Shown here one piece after another: positions 36,639 to 53,331 of a stretch of 64,000 nucleotides of DNA (position 1 is the first letter of the stretch; every line of letters begins with the position of its first letter). Both the position numbers and the translations under genes were made by a program. The stretch covers positions 1 to 64,000 of the forward strand of contig NZ_FNIA01000005.1 in the NCBI RefSeq assembly GCF_900103505.1. Reading direction: 5' to 3'. Origin of the DNA: Haloarchaeobius iranensis (GTDB lineage Archaea > Halobacteriota > Halobacteria > Halobacteriales > Natrialbaceae). The notes beneath the pieces were generated by a model. The model did no database searches. It was not told the DNA's origin and saw nothing but the letters and a program-made list of their open reading frames with translations.

Positions 36639-37071
36639 TCCGGAGTGGGTGGCGTTCGCAACCGACCGCGCTGGCTCCTGCCGGCGAGATGCGTTCCACG
36701 ACACCCACGTCGTGGGTTTCACCCCGTTTTCCGGTCGGTTCGCGTCCGGATGGGTCGGGTGGGACTCGCGGCCCGATCGTCACTATGACGAAATTCGGCG
36801 GCTCGACATCGGCCACGTCCGGCGCCGATAGACTTTTGTCGGCTGTGAACGCATACCAATCCACATCACCACTAGCTCCGGTGTCGCTGGCGATCCGTGC
36901 TCGCCGGACCGCCGCCGCGAGAGCGACAGGTATATTATTTGCAGTATTTACGTATGTGAATTATATAGTTTGCTAGAATAGATTTTTAATATAGCCACCG
37001 TAAACTACTGCCGAGGTCGCACACTACGGCACGGTCGCGGAAGCGACGAGTGTGGCCTCGTCATCCAACCC

Positions 37072-37516
37072 ATGACACAGGACAGACGCAGCTACCTACG
37101 GAACGTATCGGCACTCGTCGCGTCGGTCGTCGGCGCGAGCGCGGCAGCATCGGCGGGGGACACGCCGCCCGAGTGGGACTCGGAGACGGTGTACACGGGC
37201 GGTGACCGGGTCGTCTACGACGGCTACATCTGGGAGGCCGAGTGGTGGACCCGGGGGACGACCCCGAGCGAGAGCGCGAACGTGTGGACGAAGATCGGGC
37301 CCGTCGACGGCGGCGGTGGCGGCGGCGAGCTGCCGCCGGCATGGAGCGCCGAGGCCACGTACACGGGCGGCGACCGGGTGACCTACGAGGGCTACATCTG
37401 GGAGGCCGAGTGGTGGACGAGGGGCGACGAGCCGACCGTCGAGGCCAACGTCTGGACCCAGGTCGAGCCCGTCGAGGACCCCGACGAACCGGCCGGCCCG
37501 ACGGCGTCGTTCACCG
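37072..37516 (+). repeat. 445-bp direct repeat, copy 1 (chitinase 5' end)
   Basis: Covers the Tat leader and both chitin-binding modules. It is nearly identical to 41053-41497 apart from a short block of changes around 37250-37270, and similarity drops sharply at the end of the PKD linker. Confidence 0.9.
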
Positions 37517-38868
37517 CGAGCGAGGCGGTCGTCGACCCGGGTACCGAGGTTGACTTCGACGCCAGCGGCTCCGAGGGCAGCATCAGCAGCTACGAGTGGA
37601 GCTTCGGCGACGGCGGGACCGCCACCGGCGAGGTTGTCTCGCACACGTTTGCAACGGCGGGCGAGTACACCGTCGAGCTGACCGTGACGAACGATAGCGG
37701 GACGAGCGACACGGCGACCGACACTATCGTCGCCGACGGTGGCACCCCGACCGAGGACCGTGTCGTCGGCTACTACATGCAGTGGTCGCAGTGGGACCGG
37801 GAGTACTATCCCGGCGACATCCCGCTGGACAAGGTCACCCACGTCAACTACGCCTTCCTCACCGTCGAGCAGGACGGGGCGGTGAACTACATCAGCGAGA
37901 ACGCGGCGATGCGCGTGCTCGAACCGGAGTCCTGGCACGACCACACCGGCTTCGACGAAATCGTCGACGACCCCGACACGCAGTTCCTGTTCTCCATCGG
38001 CGGCTGGAACGACTCGAAGTACTTCTCGAACGCCGCCCAGACCCAGGAGAGCCGCGAGCGCTTCGCGAACACGGCCGTCGAGATTATGCGCGAGCACGAC
38101 TTCGACGGACTGGACATCGACTGGGAGTACCCCGGCGGCGGCGGCAAGTCCGGCAACATCGTCCGCGATGGCGACAAGCAGCGGTACACGGAGCTCCTCC
38201 AGACGGTCCGCCAGAAGCTCGACGAGGCGGAGGACGAGGACGGACAGGAGTACCTCCTGACGACCGCGCTGTCGGCCGACCCCAACAAGAACGAGGGGCT
38301 AGACCACGCCGCGAACGCCCAGGCGCTCGACTTCCTGAACGTGATGACCTACGACTATCACGGGGCGTTCGACGACAACACGAACCACCAGGCCCCGCTG
38401 TACTACAAGGAGAACGACCCGTCGCCGCGCGCGGACGACTTCAACATCGACGCGTCGATGTCGTTCTGGGCCGACACCGCCTTCGACAATAACCAGCTCT
38501 CGCTCGGGCTGCCGTTCTACGGGCGCAGCTTCGGGAACGTCGCCAGCAGCGACAACGGCGGGCTCTACCAGTCCTTCGAGGGCTCGCCCGACGGCACCTG
38601 GGGCCAGGACAACGGCATCATGGAGTTCTGGGACATCGACCAGAACCTCGAACCCAGCGGCGAGTACGAGTACTACTGGGACGACACCGCGAAGGTCCCC
38701 TGGATCTACTCCGAGTCGAACGACGTCCTCGTCAGCTACGACAACCCCGAATCAGTCGGCATCAAGACGGACTACGCCGTCGAGAACGACTTCGGCGGGA
38801 TGATGTTCTGGACGTTCTCCGGCGACAAGAACGAGGTGCTGCTCGACACGGTCCTCGACCACCTCTGA
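37072..38868 (+). CDS. GH18 chitinase with two CBM5/12-like modules and a PKD domain
   Basis: A 598-residue secreted chitinase. A Tat leader with DRRSYLRN (residues 4-11) is followed by two ChiC-type chitin-binding modules (about 34-76 and 90-133; AEWWT core), a PKD domain (about 145-222) and the GH18 barrel (about 230-598). The catalytic DxxDxDxE is Asp345, Asp348, Asp350 and the acid Glu352. It should cut chitin to chito-oligosaccharides outside the cell. The first 445 bases are almost identical to those of the second chitinase. First gene of the chitin island. Confidence 0.95.
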   Translation: MTQDRRSYLRNVSALVASVVGASAAASAGDTPPEWDSETVYTGGDRVVYDGYIWEAEWWTRGTTPSESANVWTKIGPVDGGGGGGELPPAWSAEATYTGGDRVTYEGYIWEAEWWTRGDEPTVEANVWTQVEPVEDPDEPAGPTASFTASEAVVDPGTEVDFDASGSEGSISSYEWSFGDGGTATGEVVSHTFATAGEYTVELTVTNDSGTSDTATDTIVADGGTPTEDRVVGYYMQWSQWDREYYPGDIPLDKVTHVNYAFLTVEQDGAVNYISENAAMRVLEPESWHDHTGFDEIVDDPDTQFLFSIGGWNDSKYFSNAAQTQESRERFANTAVEIMREHDFDGLDIDWEYPGGGGKSGNIVRDGDKQRYTELLQTVRQKLDEAEDEDGQEYLLTTALSADPNKNEGLDHAANAQALDFLNVMTYDYHGAFDDNTNHQAPLYYKENDPSPRADDFNIDASMSFWADTAFDNNQLSLGLPFYGRSFGNVASSDNGGLYQSFEGSPDGTWGQDNGIMEFWDIDQNLEPSGEYEYYWDDTAKVPWIYSESNDVLVSYDNPESVGIKTDYAVENDFGGMMFWTFSGDKNEVLLDTVLDHL

Positions 38869-38996
38869 CCCCGGCACCGCTGCATGACATCGCGGCCCGC
38901 TCCCGTCCGTCGCTCCCGTAACGGGCGATGTCCGGGGCGCTGGTCGTATACGGTCTGAACAACCACCGAAAGCAACCACAGTTCGCAATTACCAGC

Positions 38997-40811
38997 ATGT
39001 CCGAAGACGAACCCTACGACAGAGACAGGCGTAGCTTCCTCAGAACACTCGGTGCCCTCGGGGCTGCCGCGGGAATCGGCGGCGTCGCCGGTGCGACCCC
39101 GGGCCGGCAGCCAGGGCCGAAGGAGGACGAACTCCTCGTCGGCGTCGAGCCGACGGCCAGCGTCTCGGCGGCCGCGTCGACCGTCGAGTCGGCCACCCCG
39201 TCCGACACGAGCGTCGTCCACCGAAACGAGACGCTCGGCTACCTCGCGGTGCGGGTCCCGGGGTCCGAGGCCAGCAGCGAGTCGAGCACCGCGTCCGGCA
39301 TCCGCGCGCAGTCGGGCGTCGCGTACGTGGAGGAGAACGCGACGTACCACGCGTTCTTGACGCCGGACGACCCGCAGTACGGGCAGCAGTACGCGCCACA
39401 GCAGGTGAACGCCCCGTCGGCGTGGGACACCACCCTCGGCAGCGAGGGCGTCACCATCGCGGTCGTCGACCAGGGGACCGACTACACCCACCCGGACCTC
39501 TCGGCCCGCTTCGGCAGCGAGGACGGGTGCGACTTCGTCGACGACGACGGCGACCCGGCCCCGAACGCGGCGAGCGAGAACCACGGCACCCACGTCTCCG
39601 GCATCGCCGCCGCGACGACCGACAACGGCACGGGCGTCGCCGGCATGTCCGACTGTACGCTGCTCTCCGTCCGCGTGCTCGGCGGGGGCGGCGGCGGGTC
39701 GCTCAGCGACATCGCGGACGGCATCCAGTGGGCTGCCGACCAGGGGGCCGACATCATCAACATGAGCCTCGGGGGCGGCGGCTACAGCCAGACGCTCAAG
39801 GACGCCGTCTCCTACGCGCTGAGCAACGGGACCCTGCCCATCTGTGCCGCCGGGAACAGCGGTCAGCGCGGCGTCGCCTACCCGGCGAAATACAGCGAGT
39901 GCGTCGCGGTCGGCGCGCTCGACCAGAACGAGAACCTGGCGAGCTTCAGCCAGTACGGGCCCGACCTCGACGTGGTCGCACCGGGGGTCGACGTGCTCTC
40001 GACCGTCCCCGGCGGGTCGTACGAGCGTCTCTCCGGCACCTCGATGGCGTGTCCGGCGACCAGCGGCGTCGCGGCGCTCGGCCTCTCCGCGAACCCCGGG
40101 CTCTCCGCCGAGGAACTGCGGAGCCAGCTCCAGGACACTGCGGTCGACGTCGGCCTGGGCGAGGAGAAGCAGGGCGACGGTCGCGTGGACGCGGCGAACA
40201 TCGTCGGCGACGGTGGCGGCGGTGACCCGACCGCCTCCTTGACCGTCTCACCGACCGACCCGGCCGTCGACGAGACCGTGTCGGTCGACGCGTCCGGCAG
40301 CAGCGACGACGGGACCATCGCGAGCTACGAGTGGGCGTTCGGCGACGGGGCCACCGCGACCGGCGTCACGGCCAGCCACGCCTACGGGGCCGCAGGCGAG
40401 TACACCGTCGAACTCACCGTCACCGACGACGACGGGAACACCGCGACGGCTACCGAGACCGTCACCGTCTCCGACGACGGTGGTGGCGAGTACCCCGCGT
40501 GGGACCCCGAGACGGTCTACACCCAGGGCGACCGTGTCACGTACGACGGCAAGGTCTGGGAGGCCCAGTGGTGGACCCAGGGCACCGAACCTAGCAGCGA
40601 GGCGAACGTCTGGGAGATGGTCGAGGACGACGACCCCAGCACCGACTGCTCCGGCATCCCGAGCTGGGACGGCACGACCGTCTACACCGACGGCGACGAG
40701 GTCGTCTTCGAGGGCACGCTCTGGCGTGCCAAGTGGTGGACCCGGGGCACCGAACCCGCGACGAGCGCGCCGGTCTGGGAGATGCTCGGCGACTGCCAGG
40801 GCTCGCAGTGA
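38997..40811 (+). CDS. chitin-binding subtilisin-like protease
   Basis: A 604-residue halolysin-like S8 protease. A Tat leader with DRRSFLRTLG (residues 10-19), a propeptide, then the catalytic domain with Asp158 (DQGTD), His196 (NHGTHVSG) and Ser349 (GTSMACPATSG). These are followed by a PKD domain (about 410-495) and two CBM5/12-like modules at the C-terminus with AQWWT and AKWWT cores. Start: the ATG giving MSEDEPYDR; an upstream ATG adds residues ahead of the leader. Placed between two chitinase genes, it probably strips protein from chitin-protein matrices (inference). Confidence 0.92.
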   Translation: MSEDEPYDRDRRSFLRTLGALGAAAGIGGVAGATPGRQPGPKEDELLVGVEPTASVSAAASTVESATPSDTSVVHRNETLGYLAVRVPGSEASSESSTASGIRAQSGVAYVEENATYHAFLTPDDPQYGQQYAPQQVNAPSAWDTTLGSEGVTIAVVDQGTDYTHPDLSARFGSEDGCDFVDDDGDPAPNAASENHGTHVSGIAAATTDNGTGVAGMSDCTLLSVRVLGGGGGGSLSDIADGIQWAADQGADIINMSLGGGGYSQTLKDAVSYALSNGTLPICAAGNSGQRGVAYPAKYSECVAVGALDQNENLASFSQYGPDLDVVAPGVDVLSTVPGGSYERLSGTSMACPATSGVAALGLSANPGLSAEELRSQLQDTAVDVGLGEEKQGDGRVDAANIVGDGGGGDPTASLTVSPTDPAVDETVSVDASGSSDDGTIASYEWAFGDGATATGVTASHAYGAAGEYTVELTVTDDDGNTATATETVTVSDDGGGEYPAWDPETVYTQGDRVTYDGKVWEAQWWTQGTEPSSEANVWEMVEDDDPSTDCSGIPSWDGTTVYTDGDEVVFEGTLWRAKWWTRGTEPATSAPVWEMLGDCQGSQ

Positions 40812-41052
40812 GGCCGTCCGCCGTCGGTGACTGACCGCCCGTCCCCGTCCCACCGATGGGGTGGGGGCCGACGAGCAGCATCTCTATTTTCAGTACAAAT
40901 ATAGTTAGATTAACTCGTAGAAGAATACTTATTATCTTCTGGCCGGAAGATTCGGCCAGCGTCCACGAGCACGCGTGGGGTCGACGGCACCGGCCGTCGG
41001 TAGCGGGGCGGCCGCGACCGCACGCACGACTCCGGTGGACCGGAATCCGACC

Positions 41053-41497
41053 ATGACACAGGACAGACGCAGCTACCTACGGAACGTATCGGCACTCGTC
41101 GCGTCGGTCGTCGGCGCGAGCGCGGCAGCATCGGCGGGGGACACGCCGCCCGAGTGGGACTCGGAGACGGTGTACACGGGCGGTGACCGGGTCGTCTACG
41201 ACGGCTACATCTGGGAGGCCGAGTGGTGGACGAAGGACACCACGCCGAGCGAGAGCGCGAACGTGTGGACGAAGATCGGGCCCGTCGACGGCGGCGGTGG
41301 CGGCGGCGAGCTGCCGCCGGCATGGAGCGCCGAGGCCACGTACACGGGCGGCGACCGGGTGACCTACGAGGGCTACATCTGGGAGGCCGAGTGGTGGACG
41401 AGGGGCGACGAGCCGACCGTCGAGGCCAACGTCTGGACCCAGGTCGAGCCCGTCGAGGACCCCGACGAACCGGCCGGCCCGACGGCGTCGTTCACCG
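41053..41497 (+). repeat. 445-bp direct repeat, copy 2 (chitinase 5' end)
   Basis: Second copy of the leader and chitin-binding region, 3981 bases from the first. The near identity at third positions implies recent duplication or ongoing gene conversion. Confidence 0.9.
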
Positions 41498-42942
41498 TGG
41501 GTGATCGCTACGTCGAACCCGGCACCGCAGTCGAGTTCGACGCCAGCGGCTCCGAGGGCGACGTGTCGTCCTACGAGTGGGCGTTCGGCGACGACGCGAC
41601 GGCGACCGGCGAGGTCGTCAGCCACGCCTACGAGAACGAGGGCGAGTACACGGTCGAGCTGACCGTCACCGACGGGAGCGGCGCGAGCGACACCGCGACG
41701 GACACGCTGACGGTCGACGAGAACGCGGCCGGTGACGAGTTCAAGGTCGTCGGCTACTATCCGAGCTGGAAGGGCAACGAGGACTACGGCTACTACCCCG
41801 AGGACGTCCCGTTCGACAAGGTGACAGACGTGCTCTACGCGTTCCTGGACGTGCAGCCCGACGGCACGGTCACCATCCCGGACAGCGAGGTCGACCACGA
41901 GTCGCTGCTCCAGTCCTTCGCCGACCTGAAGCAGGGGCCGGCGGCGGACACGCGGCTCAAGCTCTCCATCGGCGGCTGGGCGCTCTCACCCGGCTTCGAG
42001 GATGCCGCTGACGACCCGAGCGGCCGGCAGCAGTTCGCCGACACCGCGGTCGCGCTCATGCGCGAGTACGACTTCGACGGCATCGACATCGACTGGGAGC
42101 ACCCCGGCCCGAACCGCGGCGTCTGCGAGTGCGGCAGTTCGGAGGGGCCGGCGAACCACGTGAAACTGCTCGAGGCCGTCCGCGAGCGACTCGACGAGGC
42201 CGAGGCCGAGGACGACCGCACGTACTACCTCTCGGTCGCCAACGGCGGCTCCGACTGGAACGCCGCGCTCATCAACCACCGCGAGGTCGAGCAGGTCGTC
42301 GACGACATCTACATGATGGCGTACGACTTCACCGGCGTCTGGCACGAGACCGCCGGGCTGAACGCGCCGATCTACGGGACCCCCGACGACTATCCGCCCT
42401 CCGGCGACGCCCAGCAGTACACCCTGGAGACCACCCTCGAGATATGGAAGAACCAGGGATACTGGGTCGACTGGATGGAGTGGGAGGACCACGGCGAGCC
42501 CGTCGAGGACCCCGGCAGCCTCGTGATGGGCCTGCCGTTCTACGGCCGCGGCTGCATCGTCGAGGACGGTATCTGGGACTCGTTCTCGCTGCCGGACTGG
42601 CAGCAGGGCGACCCCGAGCACCAGAACGATGTCATCCCGCCGGGAACGTGGAACGACCTCCTCGGCCCGGACCAGGCCAACACCGGCGCGTACGACTACG
42701 GCGACCTCGCCGCGAACTACGAGGGGGCCGACGGCTGGGAGAAGCAGGTGAACGAGCAGGGCCAGGTGCCCTACCTCTGGAACGAGTACGAGGGCGTCTT
42801 CATCAGTTACGACGACCCCGCCTCCATCGAGGAGAAGGTCCAGCTTGCGAAGGACGAGGGTCTCGGTGGCGTCATGTTCTGGGAGCTCTCCCAGGACTAC
42901 GACGAGACGCTCATCGACACCATCAACGAGGCCAAGCCATGA
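41053..42942 (+). CDS. second GH18 chitinase with two CBM5/12-like modules and a PKD domain
   Basis: A 629-residue secreted chitinase with the same architecture as the first: Tat leader, two chitin-binding modules, PKD domain, GH18 barrel from about residue 228. The catalytic motif is Asp342, Asp345, Asp347, Glu349 in FDGIDIDWEH. The barrel differs strongly from that of the first enzyme, with an insertion carrying CECG after the catalytic Glu. The two may therefore differ in product or in endo/exo mode. Start is the ATG of MTQDRRSY; the next gene overlaps its stop as ATGA. Confidence 0.95.
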   Translation: MTQDRRSYLRNVSALVASVVGASAAASAGDTPPEWDSETVYTGGDRVVYDGYIWEAEWWTKDTTPSESANVWTKIGPVDGGGGGGELPPAWSAEATYTGGDRVTYEGYIWEAEWWTRGDEPTVEANVWTQVEPVEDPDEPAGPTASFTVGDRYVEPGTAVEFDASGSEGDVSSYEWAFGDDATATGEVVSHAYENEGEYTVELTVTDGSGASDTATDTLTVDENAAGDEFKVVGYYPSWKGNEDYGYYPEDVPFDKVTDVLYAFLDVQPDGTVTIPDSEVDHESLLQSFADLKQGPAADTRLKLSIGGWALSPGFEDAADDPSGRQQFADTAVALMREYDFDGIDIDWEHPGPNRGVCECGSSEGPANHVKLLEAVRERLDEAEAEDDRTYYLSVANGGSDWNAALINHREVEQVVDDIYMMAYDFTGVWHETAGLNAPIYGTPDDYPPSGDAQQYTLETTLEIWKNQGYWVDWMEWEDHGEPVEDPGSLVMGLPFYGRGCIVEDGIWDSFSLPDWQQGDPEHQNDVIPPGTWNDLLGPDQANTGAYDYGDLAANYEGADGWEKQVNEQGQVPYLWNEYEGVFISYDDPASIEEKVQLAKDEGLGGVMFWELSQDYDETLIDTINEAKP

Positions 42943-44783
42943 GACGGCGGACGTACCTCCGGTCGGTCTCCTCGCTCCTCGGCGCGAGCGCGGCGGCCTC
43001 GGCGGCCTCGGCGGCCTCGGACACGCCCCCCGAGTGGGACGCCGACACGGTCTACACGGGCGGCGACCGCGTCGTGTACGAGGGGTACGTCTGGGAGGCC
43101 GAGTGGTGGACGAAGGGCGACGAGCCCACCATCGCGGCCAACGTCTGGACCCGCATCGAACCGGTCGACGGCGGCAGTGGAGGCGACGGGCCGCCGGCCT
43201 GGAGCCCGGACGCGACGTACACCGAGGGGGACCGGGTCACCCACGACGAGTCCGTCTGGGAGGCGAAGTGGTGGACGCGGGGCGACGAGCCCGGTGCGAG
43301 CGAGTGGGGGCCCTGGAAACTGGTCGAGGACGGCGGTGGCGGCGGTGGCGAGGAGCTCGCGGCGGCCATCGACGCGAGCGCGACGACCGTCACCGTCGGC
43401 GAGAGCGTGACCCTCGACGGCTCCGGCTCGACCGGCGACGTGGCGTCCTACCAGTGGGCCGTCGGCGACCGCGAGCCCGTCACGGGCGTCGAGACGGCCG
43501 TCACCTTCGACGACCCCGGCGAGTACGCCGTCACGCTGACCGTGACCGGTGCCGACGGTGCGACCGCGAGCGCGGAGACGACGCTGACCGTCGAGCCCGA
43601 GGACCAGCCGCCGGACGAGCTCACGCCCGAGACGACCATCGCCGAGTTCCTGCCGAACTACCAGGAGCGGCACATCCCGGACGTCTTCCTCGATTTCATG
43701 CCCGACGAGGTGGACAGCGGCGGGGGCCACGGGGGCCACGCCACGGCGGCGGTCGCGTGGCCGGACGACGAGAAGGCGGCCGACTTCGCGGTCGACCTCG
43801 ACGCGATCCGGAACAACGTCGAGGACGGCTCGCTGCAGTTCGGCTCGCTCGGTACCCAGGCGCTCGACTGGGCCAGCGAGTTCCGCGCCGCCGGCCTGCC
43901 GGACCACGCCGTCGCCCAGCTGCTGCCGCGGCTGATGCTCCTGCCCGACGAGCGGGAGGCCCCGACGTTCCAGGGGCCGGGGCGCGACGCGGCCTGGGAC
44001 GAGACGGCCGGCCCCGTCGCCGCGAGCAACGACCCATCCGCGCTCGTCCAGGACCCCTGGCCCACGGACGCACGCGGGGAGGACGACGAGGAGGTCGCCG
44101 AGCGCGACCGGGTCTACTTCCAGGCGCAGGACGACCCCGCGTGGTCGGACGACTTCGAGTACCTCGACAACTACGACAGCGCGCTGCTGGAGACGCTGCA
44201 GGAGAACACGCACCCGGCGACCGGCGAGCCGCTGGGTGGCGATAGCTTCACCGCGAACGCGCCGATGGAGGTCAGCACGGAGGTCCACGGCAGCGACTGG
44301 TTCTGGTACCAGGTGCTCCTGTTCGAGAACACCGGCCCGGTGCCGTACCACCTCGACGGCGCGGTCGTCTGGTGGCTCGGTCCGGCGAACTTCGGCAAGA
44401 CGATGTCCGCCGGCGCGTACAACAACGAGCAGCGCCCGAAGCCCGGCTACGGCCACCCGCAGCGCGACATCGTCGAGATAACGCTCCCCGACGAGCACGT
44501 CCCCGACGAGTACGCCGACGTCGACTCGACGCTGTCGGCGTACGCCGTCAGGCTGGCGTACCACGACTCGCCGTACAACATGCGGACGGCCTACCCCGGC
44601 CAGTACTGGTCGCTGGAGATCAGCGTGGGCGAACCGCTGCACCAGAAGTTCGACACGGCCGAGCAGCGCCAGCAGGTCGTCGACATGATTGCCGACACGG
44701 CCCACGTCGAACTGGAGACCGACATGGACCTGAACGACGACGTGGTCGACGCCATCGAGCTGTACAACCGCGTCGGGAACTGA
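42939..44783 (+). CDS. chitin-binding exoprotein with unrecognised C-terminal domain
   Basis: A 614-residue exported protein. A short Arg-rich leader (MRRRTYLRS) with an Ala repeat is followed by two CBM5/12-like modules (about 28-70 and 85-128, AEWWT and AKWWT cores) and a PKD domain (about 145-222). After residue 225 about 390 residues match nothing I know. They have a GGGHGGHA segment near residue 264, many Trp/Tyr, and a compact DWFWYQVLLFE core near residue 450. It is translationally coupled to the second chitinase. The context suggests a chitin-active role; whether catalytic or binding is open. Confidence 0.8.
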   Translation: MRRRTYLRSVSSLLGASAAASAASAASDTPPEWDADTVYTGGDRVVYEGYVWEAEWWTKGDEPTIAANVWTRIEPVDGGSGGDGPPAWSPDATYTEGDRVTHDESVWEAKWWTRGDEPGASEWGPWKLVEDGGGGGGEELAAAIDASATTVTVGESVTLDGSGSTGDVASYQWAVGDREPVTGVETAVTFDDPGEYAVTLTVTGADGATASAETTLTVEPEDQPPDELTPETTIAEFLPNYQERHIPDVFLDFMPDEVDSGGGHGGHATAAVAWPDDEKAADFAVDLDAIRNNVEDGSLQFGSLGTQALDWASEFRAAGLPDHAVAQLLPRLMLLPDEREAPTFQGPGRDAAWDETAGPVAASNDPSALVQDPWPTDARGEDDEEVAERDRVYFQAQDDPAWSDDFEYLDNYDSALLETLQENTHPATGEPLGGDSFTANAPMEVSTEVHGSDWFWYQVLLFENTGPVPYHLDGAVVWWLGPANFGKTMSAGAYNNEQRPKPGYGHPQRDIVEITLPDEHVPDEYADVDSTLSAYAVRLAYHDSPYNMRTAYPGQYWSLEISVGEPLHQKFDTAEQRQQVVDMIADTAHVELETDMDLNDDVVDAIELYNRVGN

Positions 44784-44918
44784 CCGGAGCGCGGGCCTGG
44801 CCGAGCCCGCCGGTTCGCGTGCCGTCACGCACCGCGTACAATTATTTGACGTGTGAGGCGATATGCATGCAGCCTGTGTGCAGCCGTCCTGGCGTGGACG
44901 GTCTCGCAGCAGGCACCC

Positions 44919-45024
44919 ACGACACGGAAGCGCAGGACCTGCCTCGGGAACGCACCGGCACTCGCCGCGTCGGTCGTCGGCACGAGCGCAGCGGCATCGG
45001 CGGCGGATACCCTCGCCCGAGTGG
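44919..45024 (+). pseudogene. relic of a chitinase leader
   Basis: The reading TRKRRTCLGN, ALAASVVGTSAAASAAD, then L.ARV lines up with the chitinase leader TQDRRSYLRN, ALVASVVGASAAASAGD. The DNA also aligns. No chitin-binding module follows. It is the remnant of a further gene of this set, cut down by deletion, inside the 429-base spacer before gdh. The rest of that spacer holds only a TATA-like CTTATTT near 45055 for gdh. Confidence 0.7.
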
Positions 45025-45212: not shown

Positions 45213-46274
45213 ATGCGCGCGGTAGCCGTCCACCGCGGGGAGGAGACGCCCCGCGTCGTGGAAGTCCCGAAGCCCAAGCCGGGCCCGGGAGAGGTCCTCG
45301 TCGAGACGCACCGCGTCGGCGTCGACGGCACCGACCACGAGGTCATCGCGGGCAACCACGGCGGCTTCCCCGCGGGCGACGACTACCAGATACTCGGCCA
45401 CGAGGCCGTCGGGACCGTCGTCGACCCGAACGGGACCGGGTTCGAGGTCGGCGACGTCGTCGTCCCGACCGTCCGTCGGCCACCTGAGGGGACGAACGAG
45501 TACTTCGAGCGCGGCGAGCCCGACATGGCCCCGGACGGCCGGTACCTCGAACGCGGCATCGTCGGCGCACACGGGTACATGGCGGAGTACTTCACCAGCC
45601 CCGCCGAGTTTCTCGTCCCCATCCCCGAGTCGCTCGCGTCCCACGGCTTCCTGGTCGAGCCGACGAGCAACGCGGAGAAGGCGCTCGACCACGCGTTCTC
45701 GGCGCGCTCGGCGTTCGACTGGCGGCCGGAGTCGGCGCTCGTGCTCGGCAACGGGCCCCTCGGGCTGCTGACGCTGGCGCTCGTCGCAGACAGCTTCGAC
45801 CGACTGTACTGCCTCGGTCGGCGCGACCGGCCGGACCCGACAATCGACGTCATCGAGGGGCTCGGGGCGACGTACGTCGACTCGCGGGAGACCCCGGTTC
45901 CGGACGTCCCGGCGGTCCACGAGCCAGCCGACCTGGTGGTCGAGGCGACCGGTCACGCGAAACACGCCTTCGAGACAGTCCGGGCGCTCGCACCGAACGG
46001 CGTCGGCGCGCTGCTGGGTGTGCCCGAGGACTGGACGTTCGAGGTCGACGGCGGCCGCGTCCACCGCGAGCTGGTCATGGAGAACAAGGCGCTCGTCGGC
46101 AGCGTCAACTCGCACGTCCCGCACTTCGAGGCGGCCATCGACTCCGTCGCGGCGTTTCCGGACTGGTTCGTCGACGACCTCGTGACGACGGTCGTCCCCG
46201 CCGAAGAGCCCGCGGCGGCGTTCGCGACCGATGACGGGACCATCAAGACCGCCGTCGAATTCGCGCCGCTGTAG
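45213..46274 (+). CDS. gdh: glucose 1-dehydrogenase (halophilic, zinc-dependent)
   Basis: A 353-residue medium-chain dehydrogenase closely like Haloferax glucose dehydrogenase. The catalytic zinc ligands Asp38 (GVDGTD), His63 and Glu64 (LGHEAVG), and a Glu near residue 149 (VEPTSN) match. The nucleotide fold starts at LVLGNGPLGLLTLAL. It oxidises aldose sugars at C1 with NAD(P). A GGGGGA ribosome site sits just before the ATG; the long upstream open frame runs through the relic leader and is not coding. In this island glucosamine is a plausible substrate (inference). Confidence 0.9.
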   Translation: MRAVAVHRGEETPRVVEVPKPKPGPGEVLVETHRVGVDGTDHEVIAGNHGGFPAGDDYQILGHEAVGTVVDPNGTGFEVGDVVVPTVRRPPEGTNEYFERGEPDMAPDGRYLERGIVGAHGYMAEYFTSPAEFLVPIPESLASHGFLVEPTSNAEKALDHAFSARSAFDWRPESALVLGNGPLGLLTLALVADSFDRLYCLGRRDRPDPTIDVIEGLGATYVDSRETPVPDVPAVHEPADLVVEATGHAKHAFETVRALAPNGVGALLGVPEDWTFEVDGGRVHRELVMENKALVGSVNSHVPHFEAAIDSVAAFPDWFVDDLVTTVVPAEEPAAAFATDDGTIKTAVEFAPL

Positions 46275-46280
46275 CCCGTC

Positions 46281-47024
46281 TCAGAGGGACTCCTCGATTC
46301 GACGCACCGTCCCGAGCACCATCCCGGAAACGTTCTCCTCGAGTCGCTTGCTGCTGAGGCGGTCGGCGTGGCCGGCGACGTAGACGGCGGCGACGGTCTC
46401 GTCGGTCTCGAACGCGACGGCGACGCCGTGGATGCCCTCACGCTGCTCGCCCCGCTCGATGGTGATGCCGCGCTCCCGTGCGGTTGCGAGCTCGGCGTCG
46501 AGCGCCTCGCGGTCGGTAATCGTGTTCTCCGTGCGCGCGGGCAGCCCGTCAGCCTCGACGACGGCGTCCACGGCCGCCGCGTCGAGCCGGGCGAGGATGG
46601 CCTTCCCGGGCGCGCTGCAGTGCAGCTCCGGCGCGGTGAGGACGGCCTCGGACGGGTGGTCCGTGGACTGGTAGAGGTCGACCGCGCTCGACCCCTGTTT
46701 GACGACGATGCCGGCCGTCTCGTCGGTCGTCTCGGCGAGCTGGTCGACGTGGGGCTTCGCCGCGTGGTACAGCGCCGAGCCCTGTCGGACGCGCTCGCCG
46801 ACGGAGACGAAGCGGTACGACAGCGAGTACTCCACGCCCTCCTTGACGACGTAGCCGAGTTCGCGCAGCGTCGCGAGGTGCTTGTACGTCGTGCTCCGCG
46901 TATAGCCGAGCTCGTCCGCGAGCGCGGTGACGCGGACCGTCCCCCCTGCGTCGGCCATCGCCTCCACCACGGCGAACGTCTTCCGCGGTGCGGTGAGCGT
47001 CGCCGGTTGGTCGCTCTCGGTCAT
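46281..47024 (-). CDS. IclR-family transcriptional regulator
   Basis: A 247-residue regulator with an N-terminal winged helix (about residues 10-70, with the YTRSTTYKHLATL recognition region) and the IclR effector domain to the end (SAPGKAILARL near residue 138, REGIHGVAVAF near residue 205). The gene lies within the chitin island, convergent with gdh (6-base gap) and downstream of the dehydratase gene. Its TATA (47047-47054) is about 27 bases before the ATG and directly next to the palindromic site, which suggests autoregulation. The ligand is probably a pathway sugar acid (inference). Confidence 0.88.
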   Translation of the reverse strand: MTESDQPATLTAPRKTFAVVEAMADAGGTVRVTALADELGYTRSTTYKHLATLRELGYVVKEGVEYSLSYRFVSVGERVRQGSALYHAAKPHVDQLAETTDETAGIVVKQGSSAVDLYQSTDHPSEAVLTAPELHCSAPGKAILARLDAAAVDAVVEADGLPARTENTITDREALDAELATARERGITIERGEQREGIHGVAVAFETDETVAAVYVAGHADRLSSKRLEENVSGMVLGTVRRIEESL

Positions 47025-47054: not shown

Positions 47055-47071
47055 ATTTCGCGTGACGAAAT
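47055..47071. promoter_or_regulatory. candidate IclR-family operator, copy B
   Basis: ATTTCG-CGTGA-CGAAAT, perfect arms with a 5-base spacer, abutting the TATA element (minus strand CCTTAACC) of the iclR gene and touching the stop of the dehydratase gene. Same arms as the site at 36622. Confidence 0.6.
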
Positions 47072-48222
47072 TACCAGTCGGCGATGCTCCCGTCCTCGTT
47101 GCGCCAGGTCGGGTTGTACCACTCGACGTTGACCGTGGACCGCTCCGCGACGGTCTCCTCGTCGATGCGGATGCCGAGTCCCGGCTCGTCCAGCGTGTCG
47201 AGGTAGCCCTCCTCGAAGTCGAACACCGAGGTGTCGGCGAGGTAGTCGTAGGCCGGGCCACGCTCCGCGGAGTGGACGTCGAAGCCGTGGTCCTGCACGA
47301 CGAGGTTCGGGACGACCGTGTCGACCTGGAGCGAGGCCGCCAGCGCGATGGGGCCGAGCGGGCAGTTCGGTGCGATGGCGACGTTGTGGGCCTCGGCCAT
47401 GTTCGCAAGCTTCACCAGCTCCGAGATGCCGCCGGCGTGGGAGACGACGGGCTGGATGAGGTCGACGCCGCCGCCCCGGAACAGCTCCTTGAAGTCCCAG
47501 CGGGAGTAGAGTCGCTCTCCGGTCGCGAGCGGGGTCCGCGACTGCGCCGCGATGTCGGGCAGGTGCTCGCTGTGCTCGGGGAGCACCGGCTCCTCGATGA
47601 AGAGCAGGTCGAGGTCGGCCAGCCTGTCGGTGAGCGTCTTCGCCATCGACTTCGAGACGCGGCCGCGGAAGTCGACGCCGATGTCGACCGTATCGTCGAG
47701 CGCCTCGCGCACCTGCCGGATGCGGTCGACCGTCTCGTCGATGACCGCCGGGGATTCGATGTGGCGCGTCTGGTTCGTGGCGTCCATCTTCAGCGCCGTG
47801 TACCCCGAGTCGACGAGCCGTTCGGCCTCCTCGATGACGTCCGAGGGGCGGTCGCCGCCGACCCACTGGTAGACGCGGATGCGCTCGCGGCTCTTCCCGC
47901 CGAGCAGTTCGTAGACGGGGGCGTCGTAGTACCGACCCTTGATGTCCCAGAGCGCCTGGTCGATGCCCGCGATAGCGCTCATCAGGATGGGGCCTCCCCG
48001 GTAGAACCCGCCGCGGTAGAGCGCCTGCCAGTGGTCCTCGATGCGCCGTGGGTCACGGCCGACGAGGTAGCTGTCGAGCATCTCCGTGACAGCGGTCCTG
48101 ACTGTCTTCGCCCGGCCCTCGACGATTGGCTCCCCCCAGCCCGCGATGCCCTCGTCCGTCTCCAGCTTCAGGAACAGCCAGCGTGGCGGCACTTCGTAGA
48201 GTTCGTAGCCCGTGATTTCCAT
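47071..48222 (-). CDS. gluconate/galactonate-type dehydratase (enolase superfamily)
   Basis: A 383-residue mandelate-racemase/muconate-lactonising family member that closely tracks bacterial D-galactonate dehydratase: PPRWLFLKLETDEG near the start, GFYRGGPILMSAIAGIDQALWDIKG at residues 71-95, metal ligands Asp (GVDFRGR), Glu (FIEEPV) and Glu (ATGERL), catalytic His in VVSHAGG and in APNCPLGP nearby. It turns an aldonate into a 2-keto-3-deoxy sugar acid. In haloarchaea homologues serve gluconate in the semi-phosphorylated Entner-Doudoroff route. Co-directional with iclR. Confidence 0.85.
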   Translation of the reverse strand: MEITGYELYEVPPRWLFLKLETDEGIAGWGEPIVEGRAKTVRTAVTEMLDSYLVGRDPRRIEDHWQALYRGGFYRGGPILMSAIAGIDQALWDIKGRYYDAPVYELLGGKSRERIRVYQWVGGDRPSDVIEEAERLVDSGYTALKMDATNQTRHIESPAVIDETVDRIRQVREALDDTVDIGVDFRGRVSKSMAKTLTDRLADLDLLFIEEPVLPEHSEHLPDIAAQSRTPLATGERLYSRWDFKELFRGGGVDLIQPVVSHAGGISELVKLANMAEAHNVAIAPNCPLGPIALAASLQVDTVVPNLVVQDHGFDVHSAERGPAYDYLADTSVFDFEEGYLDTLDEPGLGIRIDEETVAERSTVNVEWYNPTWRNEDGSIADW

Positions 48223-48324: not shown

Positions 48325-48349
48325 TCCGTTTGCAATTGTGCTAACGGCT

Positions 48350-49657
48350 ATGCGAGACGATAGTACACCTTCGGTATCCCGGAGGACGCTGCTCGCGGGG
48401 GCTGGGACGACCGCTTCACTGAGCGTGGCTGGCTGTCTGGGACAGCTGACCAGCTCGGGAAGCGGCGGCGTCACCCTGCAGGCGCGTCACTTCGCGACGG
48501 ACGGAGTCGAATCGTTCTACGAGAAGCATGCGGCGAAGTTCGAGGAGGAGACCGGTATCGCGGTCGAACTCGAGACAATGGGCTGGGGCAACGCCAAGCA
48601 GAAGCAGCTCAACAGCATCACGAGTCGCGACGGCCCCGACGTCGAGGAGATCGCCTCGACGTGGATGCCCCAGCAGATCCAGTCCGACGCGTGGCTCGAC
48701 CTCGACGAGCTCGACATCTCGCTCGACGGGGTGTTCGACCAGCCGACCGGAATCGCGGAGTACGACGGCGTCACCGCCGGCTTCCCGTGGTTCTGGGGGC
48801 CGCGTGGGCACCTGATGCACGGAAACATGCTCGAGGAGGCCGGCATCTCCGACGCGCCCGGTACATGGGACGAGCTCGTCGAGCAGGGCGAGCAGTTCTC
48901 GGATGCGCACCCGGAGAAGAACCTGTTCGGGCTGCCCGGCGCGAACAACTGGGCGGTGACCCAGTACTACGCGATGCTCGTCTGGCAGGCGGGCGGCTCG
49001 CTCCTCTCCGAGGACAACTCGACCGCGCAGTTCGACAGCGACCGTGCCGTCGAGGCCCTGAACTTCTACAAGGACCTCGCGACGACCCACGGCGTCGCCC
49101 CCGAGTCGTCCGCCGAGTGGGACGGCCCGGCACGCGACAGTGCGTTCATAAACGGCCGCATCGCGAGTACCTGGAGCGCGCTCAACACGGTCGACCGCGT
49201 CGTGGCCGAGAGCGACGCGACCCGCGAGTCGATGTCGGTGGCGAAGCCGCCGGTCGGCCCCGGCGGGAGTTCGGCGACGTTCTACGGCGTCAACCTCGTC
49301 GGCATCCACCCGTGGACGAACCACGAGGACGAGGCCGCGCAGTGGCTCGAGTACCTGATGCGTCCGTCGGTCAACGCCGAGATCGCCGCGAACACCGGCT
49401 TCCTGCCGACTATCGAGGACGGCTTCGAGCAGGAGCAGTTCGCCGGGGAGCTCTACCAGACGTTCGCCGACGAGGTCCTGCCGGTCGCACAGACGTTCCC
49501 GCAGGTGCTCGGCTGGGGCCAGGTCGAGGGTATCATGAAGAACGCCGTGACCGACGTGCTCACCAGCGCCGTCAGCGGGGGCTGGAGCGAGGGCGACACC
49601 AGGGACGCGCTGGAGACCGCGGCGGAGCAGGCCAACAGCGTCCTCGACGAGAACTGA
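48350..49657 (+). CDS. ABC sugar transporter substrate-binding lipoprotein
   Basis: A 435-residue family-1 extracellular solute-binding protein. The leader has SRRTLLAG (Tat) and an AGC lipobox near residue 29. Mature features include WGNAKQKQLNSI near residue 83, typical of the glucan-binding group, and many aromatic residues. It should capture an oligosaccharide; the placement between chitinases and a hexosaminidase points to chitobiose or GlcNAc (inference). The permeases follow after 113 bases with their own TATA-like ATATATACGGG. Confidence 0.9.
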   Translation: MRDDSTPSVSRRTLLAGAGTTASLSVAGCLGQLTSSGSGGVTLQARHFATDGVESFYEKHAAKFEEETGIAVELETMGWGNAKQKQLNSITSRDGPDVEEIASTWMPQQIQSDAWLDLDELDISLDGVFDQPTGIAEYDGVTAGFPWFWGPRGHLMHGNMLEEAGISDAPGTWDELVEQGEQFSDAHPEKNLFGLPGANNWAVTQYYAMLVWQAGGSLLSEDNSTAQFDSDRAVEALNFYKDLATTHGVAPESSAEWDGPARDSAFINGRIASTWSALNTVDRVVAESDATRESMSVAKPPVGPGGSSATFYGVNLVGIHPWTNHEDEAAQWLEYLMRPSVNAEIAANTGFLPTIEDGFEQEQFAGELYQTFADEVLPVAQTFPQVLGWGQVEGIMKNAVTDVLTSAVSGGWSEGDTRDALETAAEQANSVLDEN

Positions 49658-49770
49658 CGCGGCGTATCGACGGACGGCCCGTCGGGGGCCGAACAGCGAC
49701 GCGTCGGGCGATTATTTCGGCGGTGTCGCTGTAGAAAACGATATATACGGGCAGTGAGAACTCGTGTCAC

Positions 49771-50748
49771 ATGCTCGAAGCCGTCAGAAGCGGCGTCGCC
49801 GGCCGGACCCCCGAGTGGGCAAGCCGGCTGCGGCCGTCGCTCGACGCGGACACCAGATTCGCGTACAAGCTGTTGCTCCCGGCGTTCCTGATGATGGCGA
49901 TCATCCACTTCCTGCCCATCGGGTGGGGGTTCTACATCAGCTTCGTCGAGCTCGACGCCCAGTTCATCTCGAAGTGGTGGACCGCGCCCGTCGTGGGCCT
50001 GGAGAACTACGCGAAGATTTTCGACCCGTCGACCATCGTCGGCGCGGAGTTCTGGAGCTCGCTGAAGCAGACCGTCATCTTCACCGCGGGCTCGGTGGTC
50101 GGCATCTACACGCTCGGGCTCGGCACCGCGTTGCTGCTCAACGAGGACTTCCGTGGGAATCTCATCGCCCGCACGCTCGTGCTCATCCCCTGGATCGCGC
50201 CCGCCGTCCCGGCGGTGCTGACGTGGCAGATGATGTTCCGCTCGGACACGGGTATCATCAACCACCTGCTCCGGTCGGCAGGGCTCGTCGAGGGGACGTT
50301 CTTCTGGCTCATCGGTCCCCGGTCCATCGTCGCCATCACCGTCGTCTGGACGTGGCAGAACTTCCCGTGGGCGACCATCATGCTGTACGCCGGCCTCCAG
50401 TCCATCCCGGAGCAGCTGTACGAGGCCGCCGAGACCGACGGCGCGGGGCGCTGGGAGAAGTTCCGATACATCACGCTGCCACAGCTCAAGCCCGTCTCGG
50501 TCGTCATCGTGCTCCTGCTGACCGTCTGGTCGTTCATCAACTTCACCGTCCCGTACATCCTGCTGGGCTCGAACCCGAGCGACTCCGGCCAGGTGCTCAT
50601 GCTGTTCATCTACAACTACGCGTTCTCGAACTGGTCGTTCGGCCTCGGCGCGGCCATGAGCACCGTCCTCTTCCTCGTCGCGATGGTGCTCGCGTACGCC
50701 TACTACCGGCGCATCATCGGCGGCGAGTTCGACGGGGGTGCCATCTGA
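49771..50748 (+). CDS. ABC sugar permease, MalF/UgpA-type
   Basis: A 325-residue inner-membrane permease with six membrane segments. The EAA loop that docks the ATPase is EAAETDGAGRWEKFRYITLP near residue 218. A 40-residue cytoplasmic N-terminus precedes the first helix. It forms a heterodimer with the next gene product, whose start is one base after this stop. An ATTTCG half-site lies at 49714 ahead of the promoter. Confidence 0.92.
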   Translation: MLEAVRSGVAGRTPEWASRLRPSLDADTRFAYKLLLPAFLMMAIIHFLPIGWGFYISFVELDAQFISKWWTAPVVGLENYAKIFDPSTIVGAEFWSSLKQTVIFTAGSVVGIYTLGLGTALLLNEDFRGNLIARTLVLIPWIAPAVPAVLTWQMMFRSDTGIINHLLRSAGLVEGTFFWLIGPRSIVAITVVWTWQNFPWATIMLYAGLQSIPEQLYEAAETDGAGRWEKFRYITLPQLKPVSVVIVLLLTVWSFINFTVPYILLGSNPSDSGQVLMLFIYNYAFSNWSFGLGAAMSTVLFLVAMVLAYAYYRRIIGGEFDGGAI

Positions 50749-50749
50749 G

Positions 50750-51664
50750 ATGCTCGGGTCGGCCGGGACGGACGAGGCCGCCGAGGGTCGCGTCCCGTCG
50801 GAGCTGCGCCTGACGAAGGCGGGCCGGGAGCTGCTGGTCACGGCCGTCTCGCGGTTCGCGCTCGGGCTGATACTCGTGTTCGCGTTGTTCCCCATCTGGA
50901 TGATGGTGATGAACAGCTTCAAACCGCGGAGCGCGGTGATGACGGAGAACCCCTCGCTGGTCCCGCGGACGTTCCACCCGTCGAACTACGTGGAGATGTG
51001 GTCGCGGTTCCCGCTCGTGGAGTACTTCACGAACAGCCTCATCATCGCGTCGGCGACGACGGTCGTCTCGCTGCTCGTCGCGAGCCTGGCGGCCTACGCC
51101 TTCTCACGGTACGACTTCCCGGGCAAGAGCAAGCTCGAGCTCTCCATCCTCGGCACGCAGATGATCCCCGGCGTGCTCATCCTGCTGCCGATGTACCTGC
51201 TGTTCATCAACGTCCAGATACACGTCGGGCTCCCGATGAAGGACACCTACCACGGCCTCGTGTTCCTCTACTCGACGTTCACGGTCCCCTTCGCCATCTG
51301 GATGCTGCGTGGGTACTTCGACACCATCCCGGAGGCCCTGGAGGAGGCCGCACGCATCGACGGCTGCACGCGCCTCGGCGCGCTGTTCCGCGTGGTGATG
51401 CCGCTGGCCGCGCCGGGCATCGCCGCCACCGGGATGTTCGTGTTCCTGATGGCGTTCAACGAGGTGCTGTTCGCGTCGGTGCTGGGCTCGGAGAACGTCA
51501 CGCCCTTCGCCATCGGCATCCAGCAGTTCGAGACCCAGAGCCAGACGTACTGGGGGCAGATGATGGCCGCCTCGACCGTCGCGACGGTCCCGCTGTTGCT
51601 GCTGTTCGTGCTGTTCCAGAAGCCAATCGTCGCGGGGTTGACCACGGGCAGCGTCAAGGAGTAG
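50750..51664 (+). CDS. ABC sugar permease, MalG/UgpE-type
   Basis: A 304-residue permease with six membrane segments and the EAA loop EEAARIDGCTRLGALFRVVMP near residue 195. The ATG immediately after the previous stop is chosen; one four codons earlier is possible. It pairs with the MalF-type protein and the ATPase encoded later in the island. Confidence 0.92.
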   Translation: MLGSAGTDEAAEGRVPSELRLTKAGRELLVTAVSRFALGLILVFALFPIWMMVMNSFKPRSAVMTENPSLVPRTFHPSNYVEMWSRFPLVEYFTNSLIIASATTVVSLLVASLAAYAFSRYDFPGKSKLELSILGTQMIPGVLILLPMYLLFINVQIHVGLPMKDTYHGLVFLYSTFTVPFAIWMLRGYFDTIPEALEEAARIDGCTRLGALFRVVMPLAAPGIAATGMFVFLMAFNEVLFASVLGSENVTPFAIGIQQFETQSQTYWGQMMAASTVATVPLLLLFVLFQKPIVAGLTTGSVKE

Positions 51665-51699
51665 GAACTAAGACGCCGGCCCCCGACGGTCGAACCGAC

Positions 51700-53331
51700 A
51701 TGGTCGAGCGACCTGCCGTCATGGAGCGTCCAGTGCAGTCGGTCCCGACCGAGGTGAAGGTCGGGCAGCTGTTCGTCGGAGGATTCGACGGGCCCCGTCC
51801 CACACCGGCCATCGAGGACCTGATCGAGTCCCGACACCTCGGCGGCGTCATCTACTTCAGTCGCAACGTCGAGCGCCCGCACCAGCTCGCGGACTGCTCG
51901 CGCGAGCTGCAGTCGCTCGCGCTGGAGGCCACCGGTGCCCCGCTGCTCGTCGCGACTGACCAGGAGGGCGGCGTCGTCTCCCGGTTCGACTGGGGGACCC
52001 AGCTTCCCAGCCAGATGGCGCTCGGGGCGGCCGACGACCCGGACCTGGCTCGCCGCGCCGGCCGTGCGGTCGGCCGCGAGCTCGCCGCCGTCGGCGTCAC
52101 GACGAACCTCGCGCCCGTGCTGGACGTGAACAGCGACCCGGACAACCCAGTCATCGGCGTACGGTCGTTCGGGGACGACCCGGACCGCGTCGGCGCGCTC
52201 GGCGCGGCGTTCGCGGACGGGCTCCAGGACGCGGGTGTCGCGGCCTGCGGGAAGCACTTCCCCGGGCACGGCGACACCGACACCGACTCACACCGCTCGC
52301 TCCCGGTCGTCGACCACGACCGTGAGCGGCTCGACGCGGTCGAGTTCCGGCCGTTCCGTCGGGCGGTCGACGCCGGCATCGAGGCGCTGATGACGACCCA
52401 CATCGCGTTCCCGGCGGTGACCGGCGACGACGGGCTGCCCGCGACGCTCTCGCGCACGCTGCTGACCGACGTGCTCCGCGACGAGTTCGGCTTCGACGGG
52501 CTGGTCGTCTCCGACTGTCTGGAGATGAACGCCATCGCTGGCACCGTCGGCGTCGAGGAGGGTGCCATCCGGGCCATCGAGGCCGGCTGTGACGTCGTGC
52601 TCGTCTCGCACTCGCCCGGCGCACAGCGCGGGGCCATCGACGCGGTGGTCGAAGCCGTCGAGTCGGGGCGGCTGGACGAGGGGCGCGTCGACGAGGCGTT
52701 CGAGCGCGTCCGTCGCCACAAGCGCCGGTACGCGCCGGCCGGGGGCGCGATGGAGCGCGAGCCGTCCGGTGGGAGCGTGACGCCGGACGACGAGCAGGCG
52801 GCCCCCTCGTGGGAGGTCGCCGGCGGCGCGGCGCGTGATGTCGCACGCGAGGTCGCCCGCGCGGGCGTCACGGTCGTGCGTGACCGCGGCGGGACGCTCC
52901 CGCTCGACCCGTCCGTGCCGTGCCACGTCGTCGGCTTCGACGGCGGCCGAGAGTCCGACGCCGAGGACGACCGCTACGACCCGCGGGCGTTCTTCGCCGC
53001 GCTCGCGGACAGGGGCGTCGAGGTGTACTCGCACGCGGTAACGGGCGACGAGTACACCCCGTCGTTCGACCCCGGCGCGCAGGTCGTCGTCGCCACGCAC
53101 CGCGCCCGGGCGGACGAGGCACAGCGGGCGGCCGTCGCGGCGCTGGCCGACGCGCCGGTCGACCTCGTCGTCGTCTCGCTCCGAGACCCCTACGACGTCG
53201 CAGCGCTGCCCGATGCGGGGACGTACCTCACGGGCTACGGCTACGACCCCGCGACGGTCGACGCGCTCGCGGCGGTCGTGGTCGGGGCGGCGACGGCGAC
53301 CGGCGAACTGCCGATGTCGCTGCCAGAATGA
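51700..53331 (+). CDS. GH3 beta-N-acetylhexosaminidase (NagZ-like)
   Basis: A 543-residue glycoside hydrolase family 3 enzyme. KHFPGHGDT (Lys185-His186) is the substrate-binding motif, the NagZ-specific acid/base pair is Asp196/His198 in DTDSH, and the nucleophile is Asp272 in VVSDCLEMNA. A second domain (about 380-543) is the GH3 C-terminal alpha/beta sandwich. No signal peptide, so it acts in the cytoplasm on imported chito-oligosaccharides, releasing GlcNAc. It is 35 bases after the permease genes and probably co-transcribed. A second ATG seven codons in is possible. Confidence 0.9.
   Translation: MVERPAVMERPVQSVPTEVKVGQLFVGGFDGPRPTPAIEDLIESRHLGGVIYFSRNVERPHQLADCSRELQSLALEATGAPLLVATDQEGGVVSRFDWGTQLPSQMALGAADDPDLARRAGRAVGRELAAVGVTTNLAPVLDVNSDPDNPVIGVRSFGDDPDRVGALGAAFADGLQDAGVAACGKHFPGHGDTDTDSHRSLPVVDHDRERLDAVEFRPFRRAVDAGIEALMTTHIAFPAVTGDDGLPATLSRTLLTDVLRDEFGFDGLVVSDCLEMNAIAGTVGVEEGAIRAIEAGCDVVLVSHSPGAQRGAIDAVVEAVESGRLDEGRVDEAFERVRRHKRRYAPAGGAMEREPSGGSVTPDDEQAAPSWEVAGGAARDVAREVARAGVTVVRDRGGTLPLDPSVPCHVVGFDGGRESDAEDDRYDPRAFFAALADRGVEVYSHAVTGDEYTPSFDPGAQVVVATHRARADEAQRAAVAALADAPVDLVVVSLRDPYDVAALPDAGTYLTGYGYDPATVDALAAVVVGAATATGELPMSLPE

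Follow-up and report, generated by a model that had tools for sequence, protein, structure and literature searches.

Among the closest described systems are the haloarchaeal AA10 LPMOs (PF03067 with CBM5/12), which are secreted, CBM5/12-borne proteins of chitinolytic haloarchaea that are proposed to act on crystalline polymer. The protein described here is like them in these respects but has neither a Pfam nor a profile match to AA10. Moreover, haloarchaeal AA10 domains begin with HG, whereas here a leader is followed by CBM5/12 modules and the domain of interest starts only at residue 225; because the domain is C-terminal, its first residue cannot supply the N-terminal histidine of a copper brace. 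A second comparison is with the haloarchaeal cupredoxin-PQQ sugar dehydrogenases (PF00127 with PF07995), in which the same copper module is found that is joined to our domain in four genomes. However, PF07995 is unrelated to the domain, and the protein in the window (the whole 64,000-nucleotide stretch of Haloarchaeobius iranensis DNA that was analysed) has no copper module. CBM3 and CBM2 modules provide the top structure matches of the domain's C-terminal half, as judged from low-confidence models, and occur in similar gene clusters, but the domain differs from them in having an extra helical half and an invariant set of polar residues and histidines, and it shows no CBM3 profile similarity. 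Finally, a published cluster with GH18, an S8 protease, an ABC transporter, GDH and IclR, comparable to ours as a cluster rather than gene by gene, includes a similar gene mentioned in passing; the accessible part of that account gives no description of the domain, its conservation or its cellulose branch.

The gene is laid out as follows.

42939..44783, + strand: whole gene, encoding a Tat leader, two CBM5/12 modules, a PKD domain and an unnamed domain of 390 amino acids
42939..43019, + strand: Tat-type leader, starting MRRRTYLRSVSSLLGASAAASA, with an inferred cleavage site
43020..43163, + strand: CBM5/12 module 1 (Pfam)
43185..43334, + strand: CBM5/12 module 2 (Pfam)
43362..43595, + strand: PKD domain (Pfam)
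43611..44780, + strand: unnamed conserved haloarchaeal domain, residues 225-614
43719..43742, + strand: GGGHGGHA segment, residues 261-268, a variable linker indel in the 43-member alignment
44196..44780, + strand: C-terminal half, a beta-sandwich then a terminal helix in a low-confidence model; contains H425, H450, H506 (in GHPQRD), H542 (in HDSPY) and H589 (in HVE)

The frame is open from 42939 to 44783 and its product has 614 amino acids. Judging from its sequence, this protein is secreted, with a leader of the Tat type: the RR pair is unchanged in 25 of 25 aligned full-length relatives, and no transmembrane stretch or anchor was found in the 614 residues, the top hydropathy window (1.06) lying in the leader. 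The protein is acidic (D+E 19%, K+R 5%), and the domain contains no cysteine. Pfam recognised two CBM_5_12 stretches (E 1.4e-17) and a PKD domain (E 5.4e-13) within residues 28-220, both above the cut-offs (PF02839, 63.8 bits against 26.2; PF18911, 49.2 bits against 27).

The surrounding part of the window contains the following genes.

37072..38868, + strand: GH18 chitinase with two CBM5/12 modules and PKD (Pfam)
38928..40811, + strand: S8 subtilase with PKD and two CBM5/12 modules (Pfam)
41053..42942, + strand: GH18 chitinase with two CBM5/12 modules and PKD; its stop overlaps the ATG of the domain gene
45216..46274, + strand: glucose dehydrogenase-type oxidoreductase, cluster context
46281..47024, - strand: IclR-family regulator, cluster context
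47071..48222, - strand: MR/MLE (enolase superfamily) enzyme, cluster context
48338..51664, + strand: ABC sugar importer (solute-binding protein and two permeases), cluster context
51682..53331, + strand: GH3 glycosidase, cluster context

Upstream of the domain gene, on the same strand, thus lie GH18, S8 protease and GH18 genes. The gene directly upstream was identified by Pfam as GH18 (E 3.2e-66), and the ATG at 42939 overlaps its stop (..CCATGAG..), bearing out the earlier claim, made from sequence alone, that the protein is encoded together with a chitinase. Two further features of the sequence were noted. A 96-nt decayed copy of the chitinase Tat leader (44915-45010; 79% identical, ATG changed to ACG) lies just downstream of the domain gene and appears from its sequence to be the remnant of another CBM/chitinase gene. 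In addition, the 300 nt at the start of each GH18 gene (37070-37369 and 41051-41350) show 98% identity between the two, although the catalytic parts differ, which points to a recent event, duplication or gene conversion, in the leader-CBM part.

We then asked whether the 390-residue domain belongs to any recognised family. Residues 225-614 had no match in Pfam, NCBIfam, PHROGs or PDB sequence searches, and the domain likewise had no Pfam or PDB match in 25 relatives, scanned singly or as a profile. Searches for specific candidates gave the same answer: PF03067 (AA10) had no match at E<=10 in the 25 members, and hhalign against two haloarchaeal AA10 sequences gave 0.8%, that is, no profile link. 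CBM3 (PF00942) had no Pfam match, with hhalign values of 0.1-0.2% against four haloarchaeal CBM3 sequences, and a search for CBM2 in 40 genomes of the set found none. PF00704 (GH18) was absent from the 614-residue protein and present in both neighbouring chitinases. At the same time, full-length relatives match the whole domain at E<=1e-62, and an alignment of 43 members, with identities down to about 36%, retains more than 40 columns that are invariant or nearly so. On these comparisons the domain is a real, undescribed family, and neither its sequence nor its N-terminus is that of an LPMO or, in the former respect, of a GH18 enzyme. The sequence-only reading had described a large domain of no recognised family borne by two chitin-binding modules and a PKD domain, and this description stood. 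The profile comparison that it had proposed led to no known family, and a surface-layer or tail domain, the contrary case it had raised, was unsupported.

The same alignment shows which residues are conserved. H506, H542 and H589 are present in 43 of 43 members and H450 in 42, while H425 is replaced by Asp in five. Beside the histidines are invariant acids and bases (D390, D510, E591 and five Arg), and the full set of invariant or near-invariant positions comprises N364, Q371, W374, D390, Q395, W402, N464, N496, R499, GHPQRD (505-510), R538, H542, PY (545-546), R549, Y552, P553, Q555, H589, E591, N599, R611 and N614. The His-rich GGGHGGHA segment, previously put forward as a feature of the domain, did not hold up: it is a gap in 26 of the 43 members, and H264 and H267, although they exist, are each common to two members only, the conserved histidines lying elsewhere. 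As an active site, this unconserved linker indel is ruled out.

The domain was found in 20 of 125 genomes of the window's own taxonomic family and in 42 of 392 genomes of its order; a sample of 393 genomes from the phylum added none beyond the order. The genome-contig scan used the window sequence alone as query, and the profile was applied to archaeal genome sets. The closest relatives come from Haloferax mucosum (82% identity), Halobacterium salinarum (79%) and Haloarcula amylolytica (77%), whereas other genomes of the window's own family reach at most 64%; five other genomes of its genus have neither the domain nor GH18. Since the nearest relatives belong to other families and the gene is missing from these congeners, it has probably moved between haloarchaeal families. 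No relatives were found in viral contigs, and the plasmid records that contain them are from Halocatena only (three different queries). An extended stretch of masked letters (X) in the N-terminal part of the Halopiger relative (L013:8507-11161) makes its length of 885 residues unreliable. Our literature searches found no paper naming the H. salinarum genes by the locus tags tried, and none linking halocyanin to chitin.

Comparison of gene neighbourhoods revealed two kinds of member, split in the tree by a branch with 100/100 support. Members of the chitin type have CBM5/12 and PKD modules, and all those with a hydrolase in reach adjoin GH18, often with an S8 protease as well; one member (L099) was assigned to this type despite a missing CBM label, which is due to its reading frame starting late. 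Members of the cellulose type have an N-terminal module common to the cellulases of their own cluster, or no module, and lie among GH5 and GH10 enzymes, with one such locus (L078) having GH18 as well. Overall, GH18 or GH5/GH10 occurs within 10 kb in 33 of the 43 loci, and in some of the others GH18 is farther off on the same contig (e.g. about 36 kb in Haloferax mucosum). GH18 is present in 29 of 42 domain-positive genomes as against 34 of 350 domain-negative ones (Fisher p 9e-17, a value inflated by genome relatedness). GH18 is missing from 13 domain-positive genomes: 12 have a tabulated neighbourhood, always of the cellulose type, and the other (G229) has the same N-terminal module.

These contexts, together with the branch split, indicate that the domain follows the degradation of insoluble beta-1,4-glycan while the carrier module follows the substrate. 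The occurrence of relatives beside chitinases or cellulases across the group makes a general helper probable, and from this context we consider it very likely that the protein assists haloarchaeal polysaccharide breakdown. The earlier proposal of a role on chitin was thus right as to polysaccharide breakdown but too narrow as to substrate, since about half of the family lies in GH5/GH10 cellulase-xylanase clusters and has no chitin-binding modules.

The neighbouring clusters contain further unusual genes. In chitin clusters, CBM5/12-PKD proteins of about 460-520 amino acids with a weak GH18 match only (L074:5382-6749, L081:10825-12372 and similar) are GH18 partners that have degenerated or diverged and may correspond to the 'ambiguous chitinases' of PMC12343721. 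Cellulose-type clusters (L078:7413-9314, L076:3708-6215, L072:10627-12093) contain a PAP2-family protein, together with proteins whose ends weakly resemble dockerin (below the Pfam cut-off); one of these has sortilin/BNR repeats.

A more specific indication came from four genomes (G148, G178, G216 and G272), in which an open frame of about 1070 codons contains a plastocyanin-type module between PKD domains. The module has the full H..C..H..M ligand set in all four relatives; Pfam Copper-bind scored 23.9 bits in L096 (cut-off 21.2) and 18.2 bits, below the cut-off, in L094. In these two loci (L094:9477-12692 and L096:7328-10519) the order is CBM5/12-PKD-cupredoxin-PKD-domain, placing a blue copper module inside a chitin-binding protein. 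Elsewhere in the four genomes the copper module was seen only once more, on a sugar dehydrogenase (G148), and none was found on their chitinases. Six other ORFs matched by the module, in these and other genomes, all contain a glucose/sorbosone dehydrogenase (PF07995, PQQ), although in two of the six the chosen start leaves the copper module outside the scanned part. The module is thus otherwise joined to an oxidoreductase, which argues by association, and from one small branch, that the domain is an oxidoreductase too. Of the 42 domain-positive genomes, 38 lack AA10 LPMOs. The other four have genuine ones joined to CBM5/12, as read in two cases (L119:1561-2790 and L120:1739-2626). Three of the four copper-fusion genomes also have AA10, so there the domain is no simple substitute.

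In the reading that we favour, the protein is an exported helper in the chitin and cellulose degradation of haloarchaea, and its domain works as a histidine-metal oxidoreductase, a chemistry to which we give a probability of roughly 0.45. The family, its conservation, its module architecture, its gene context and the copper-domain fusion are direct observations; the metal, the oxidation and the cleavage of substrate are all inferred. According to this model, the leader would export the protein and the CBM5/12 and PKD modules would position it on chitin, where the 390-residue domain would act on beta-1,4-glycan beside the GH18 enzymes encoded in its own cluster; in members of the cellulose branch it would work alongside GH5/GH10 enzymes. 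The domain would bind a redox metal via the invariant H506, H542 and H589, with H450, and oxidise the polysaccharide or its products, thus filling the role of an LPMO with another fold. The invariant histidines, the copper-domain fusion, the glycoside hydrolase context and the 38 genomes without AA10 favour an oxidoreductase. The idea is weakened by the restriction of the copper fusion to four genomes of one branch, three of them with AA10, by weak models whose best matches are binding modules rather than oxidases, and by the lack of a sequence-profile link to AA10. A bolder version, that the domain founds a new family of polysaccharide-oxidising metalloenzymes, so far confined to haloarchaea, with an internal-histidine site instead of an N-terminal brace, active on chitin and cellulose and in some species drawing electrons from a built-in blue copper domain, is speculative and on balance we doubt it.

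The main rival, which we regard as somewhat unlikely, is a non-catalytic amplifier: a new module that binds or loosens crystalline surfaces (a CBM3/CBM2-like beta-sandwich plus a helical part) and aids GH18 or GH5/GH10 enzymes in the manner of a CBM or expansin. Structure prediction speaks for it. AlphaFold2, supplied with six close sequences only, gave pLDDT 50 for the whole domain, and pLDDT 61 and pTM 0.62 for residues 420-614; the N-terminal half is helical in the whole-domain model, and the C-terminal half forms a beta-sandwich in both. Foldseek against the PDB with these two low-confidence models was led by CBM3b/CBM3a, with CBM2 and comparable modules from chitinases and chitobiases also among the best matches (best E 1.8e-4, prob 1.0), and VIA gave Z up to 8.7 over about 100 residues, although a Z under 8-9 can reflect a common arrangement only. 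We treat a CBM2/CBM3-like sandwich in the C-terminal half as no more than a modelling lead. Such a module would suit chitin and cellulose equally, and some relatives (L047, L048 and L057) have no other binding module. However, there is no profile similarity to haloarchaeal CBM3, the invariant His/Arg/Asp/Gln set is larger than a flat aromatic face would require for binding, and this reading would leave the fusion to a copper domain unexplained.

We think it unlikely that the domain is a glycoside hydrolase, carbohydrate esterase or polysaccharide lyase of an unrecognised kind, which would attack a bond shared by chitin and plant polysaccharides with D390, D510, E591 and His as its catalytic residues. 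Such a hydrolase or lyase would be compatible with the conserved His, Asp, Glu and Arg, the invariant acids being accompanied by Arg, Gln and Asn as in sugar sites, and all loci with a glycoside hydrolase neighbour are polysaccharide-degradation clusters. Nevertheless, the weak models show no TIM barrel or other glycoside hydrolase fold (no known enzyme fold stood out in the match lists of either model, an absence that in itself proves nothing), the copper-domain fusion is again unexplained, and a substrate-specific deacetylase or esterase is disfavoured by one domain serving both chitin and cellulose/xylan clusters. Least probable by far is an adhesion or scaffold protein tying cells or enzymes to polymer: the CBM and PKD modules and the firm attachment of cellulotrophic haloarchaeal cells to their polymer (PMC4569967) would agree with it, but the protein lacks an anchor or transmembrane stretch, stand-alone forms (L047 and L057) exist, and the abundance of invariant polar residues suggests catalysis more than adhesion.

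Found in chitin and cellulose clusters of organisms that mostly lack known LPMOs, the domain is an obvious candidate to provide the helper activity that is otherwise missing for crystalline polymer. Should it prove to be an oxidoreductase, it would represent a new class of polysaccharide-active metalloenzyme that functions close to salt saturation; as a binder, it would still add a new family of modules. In both cases, a set of 'hypothetical' proteins gains a concrete role.
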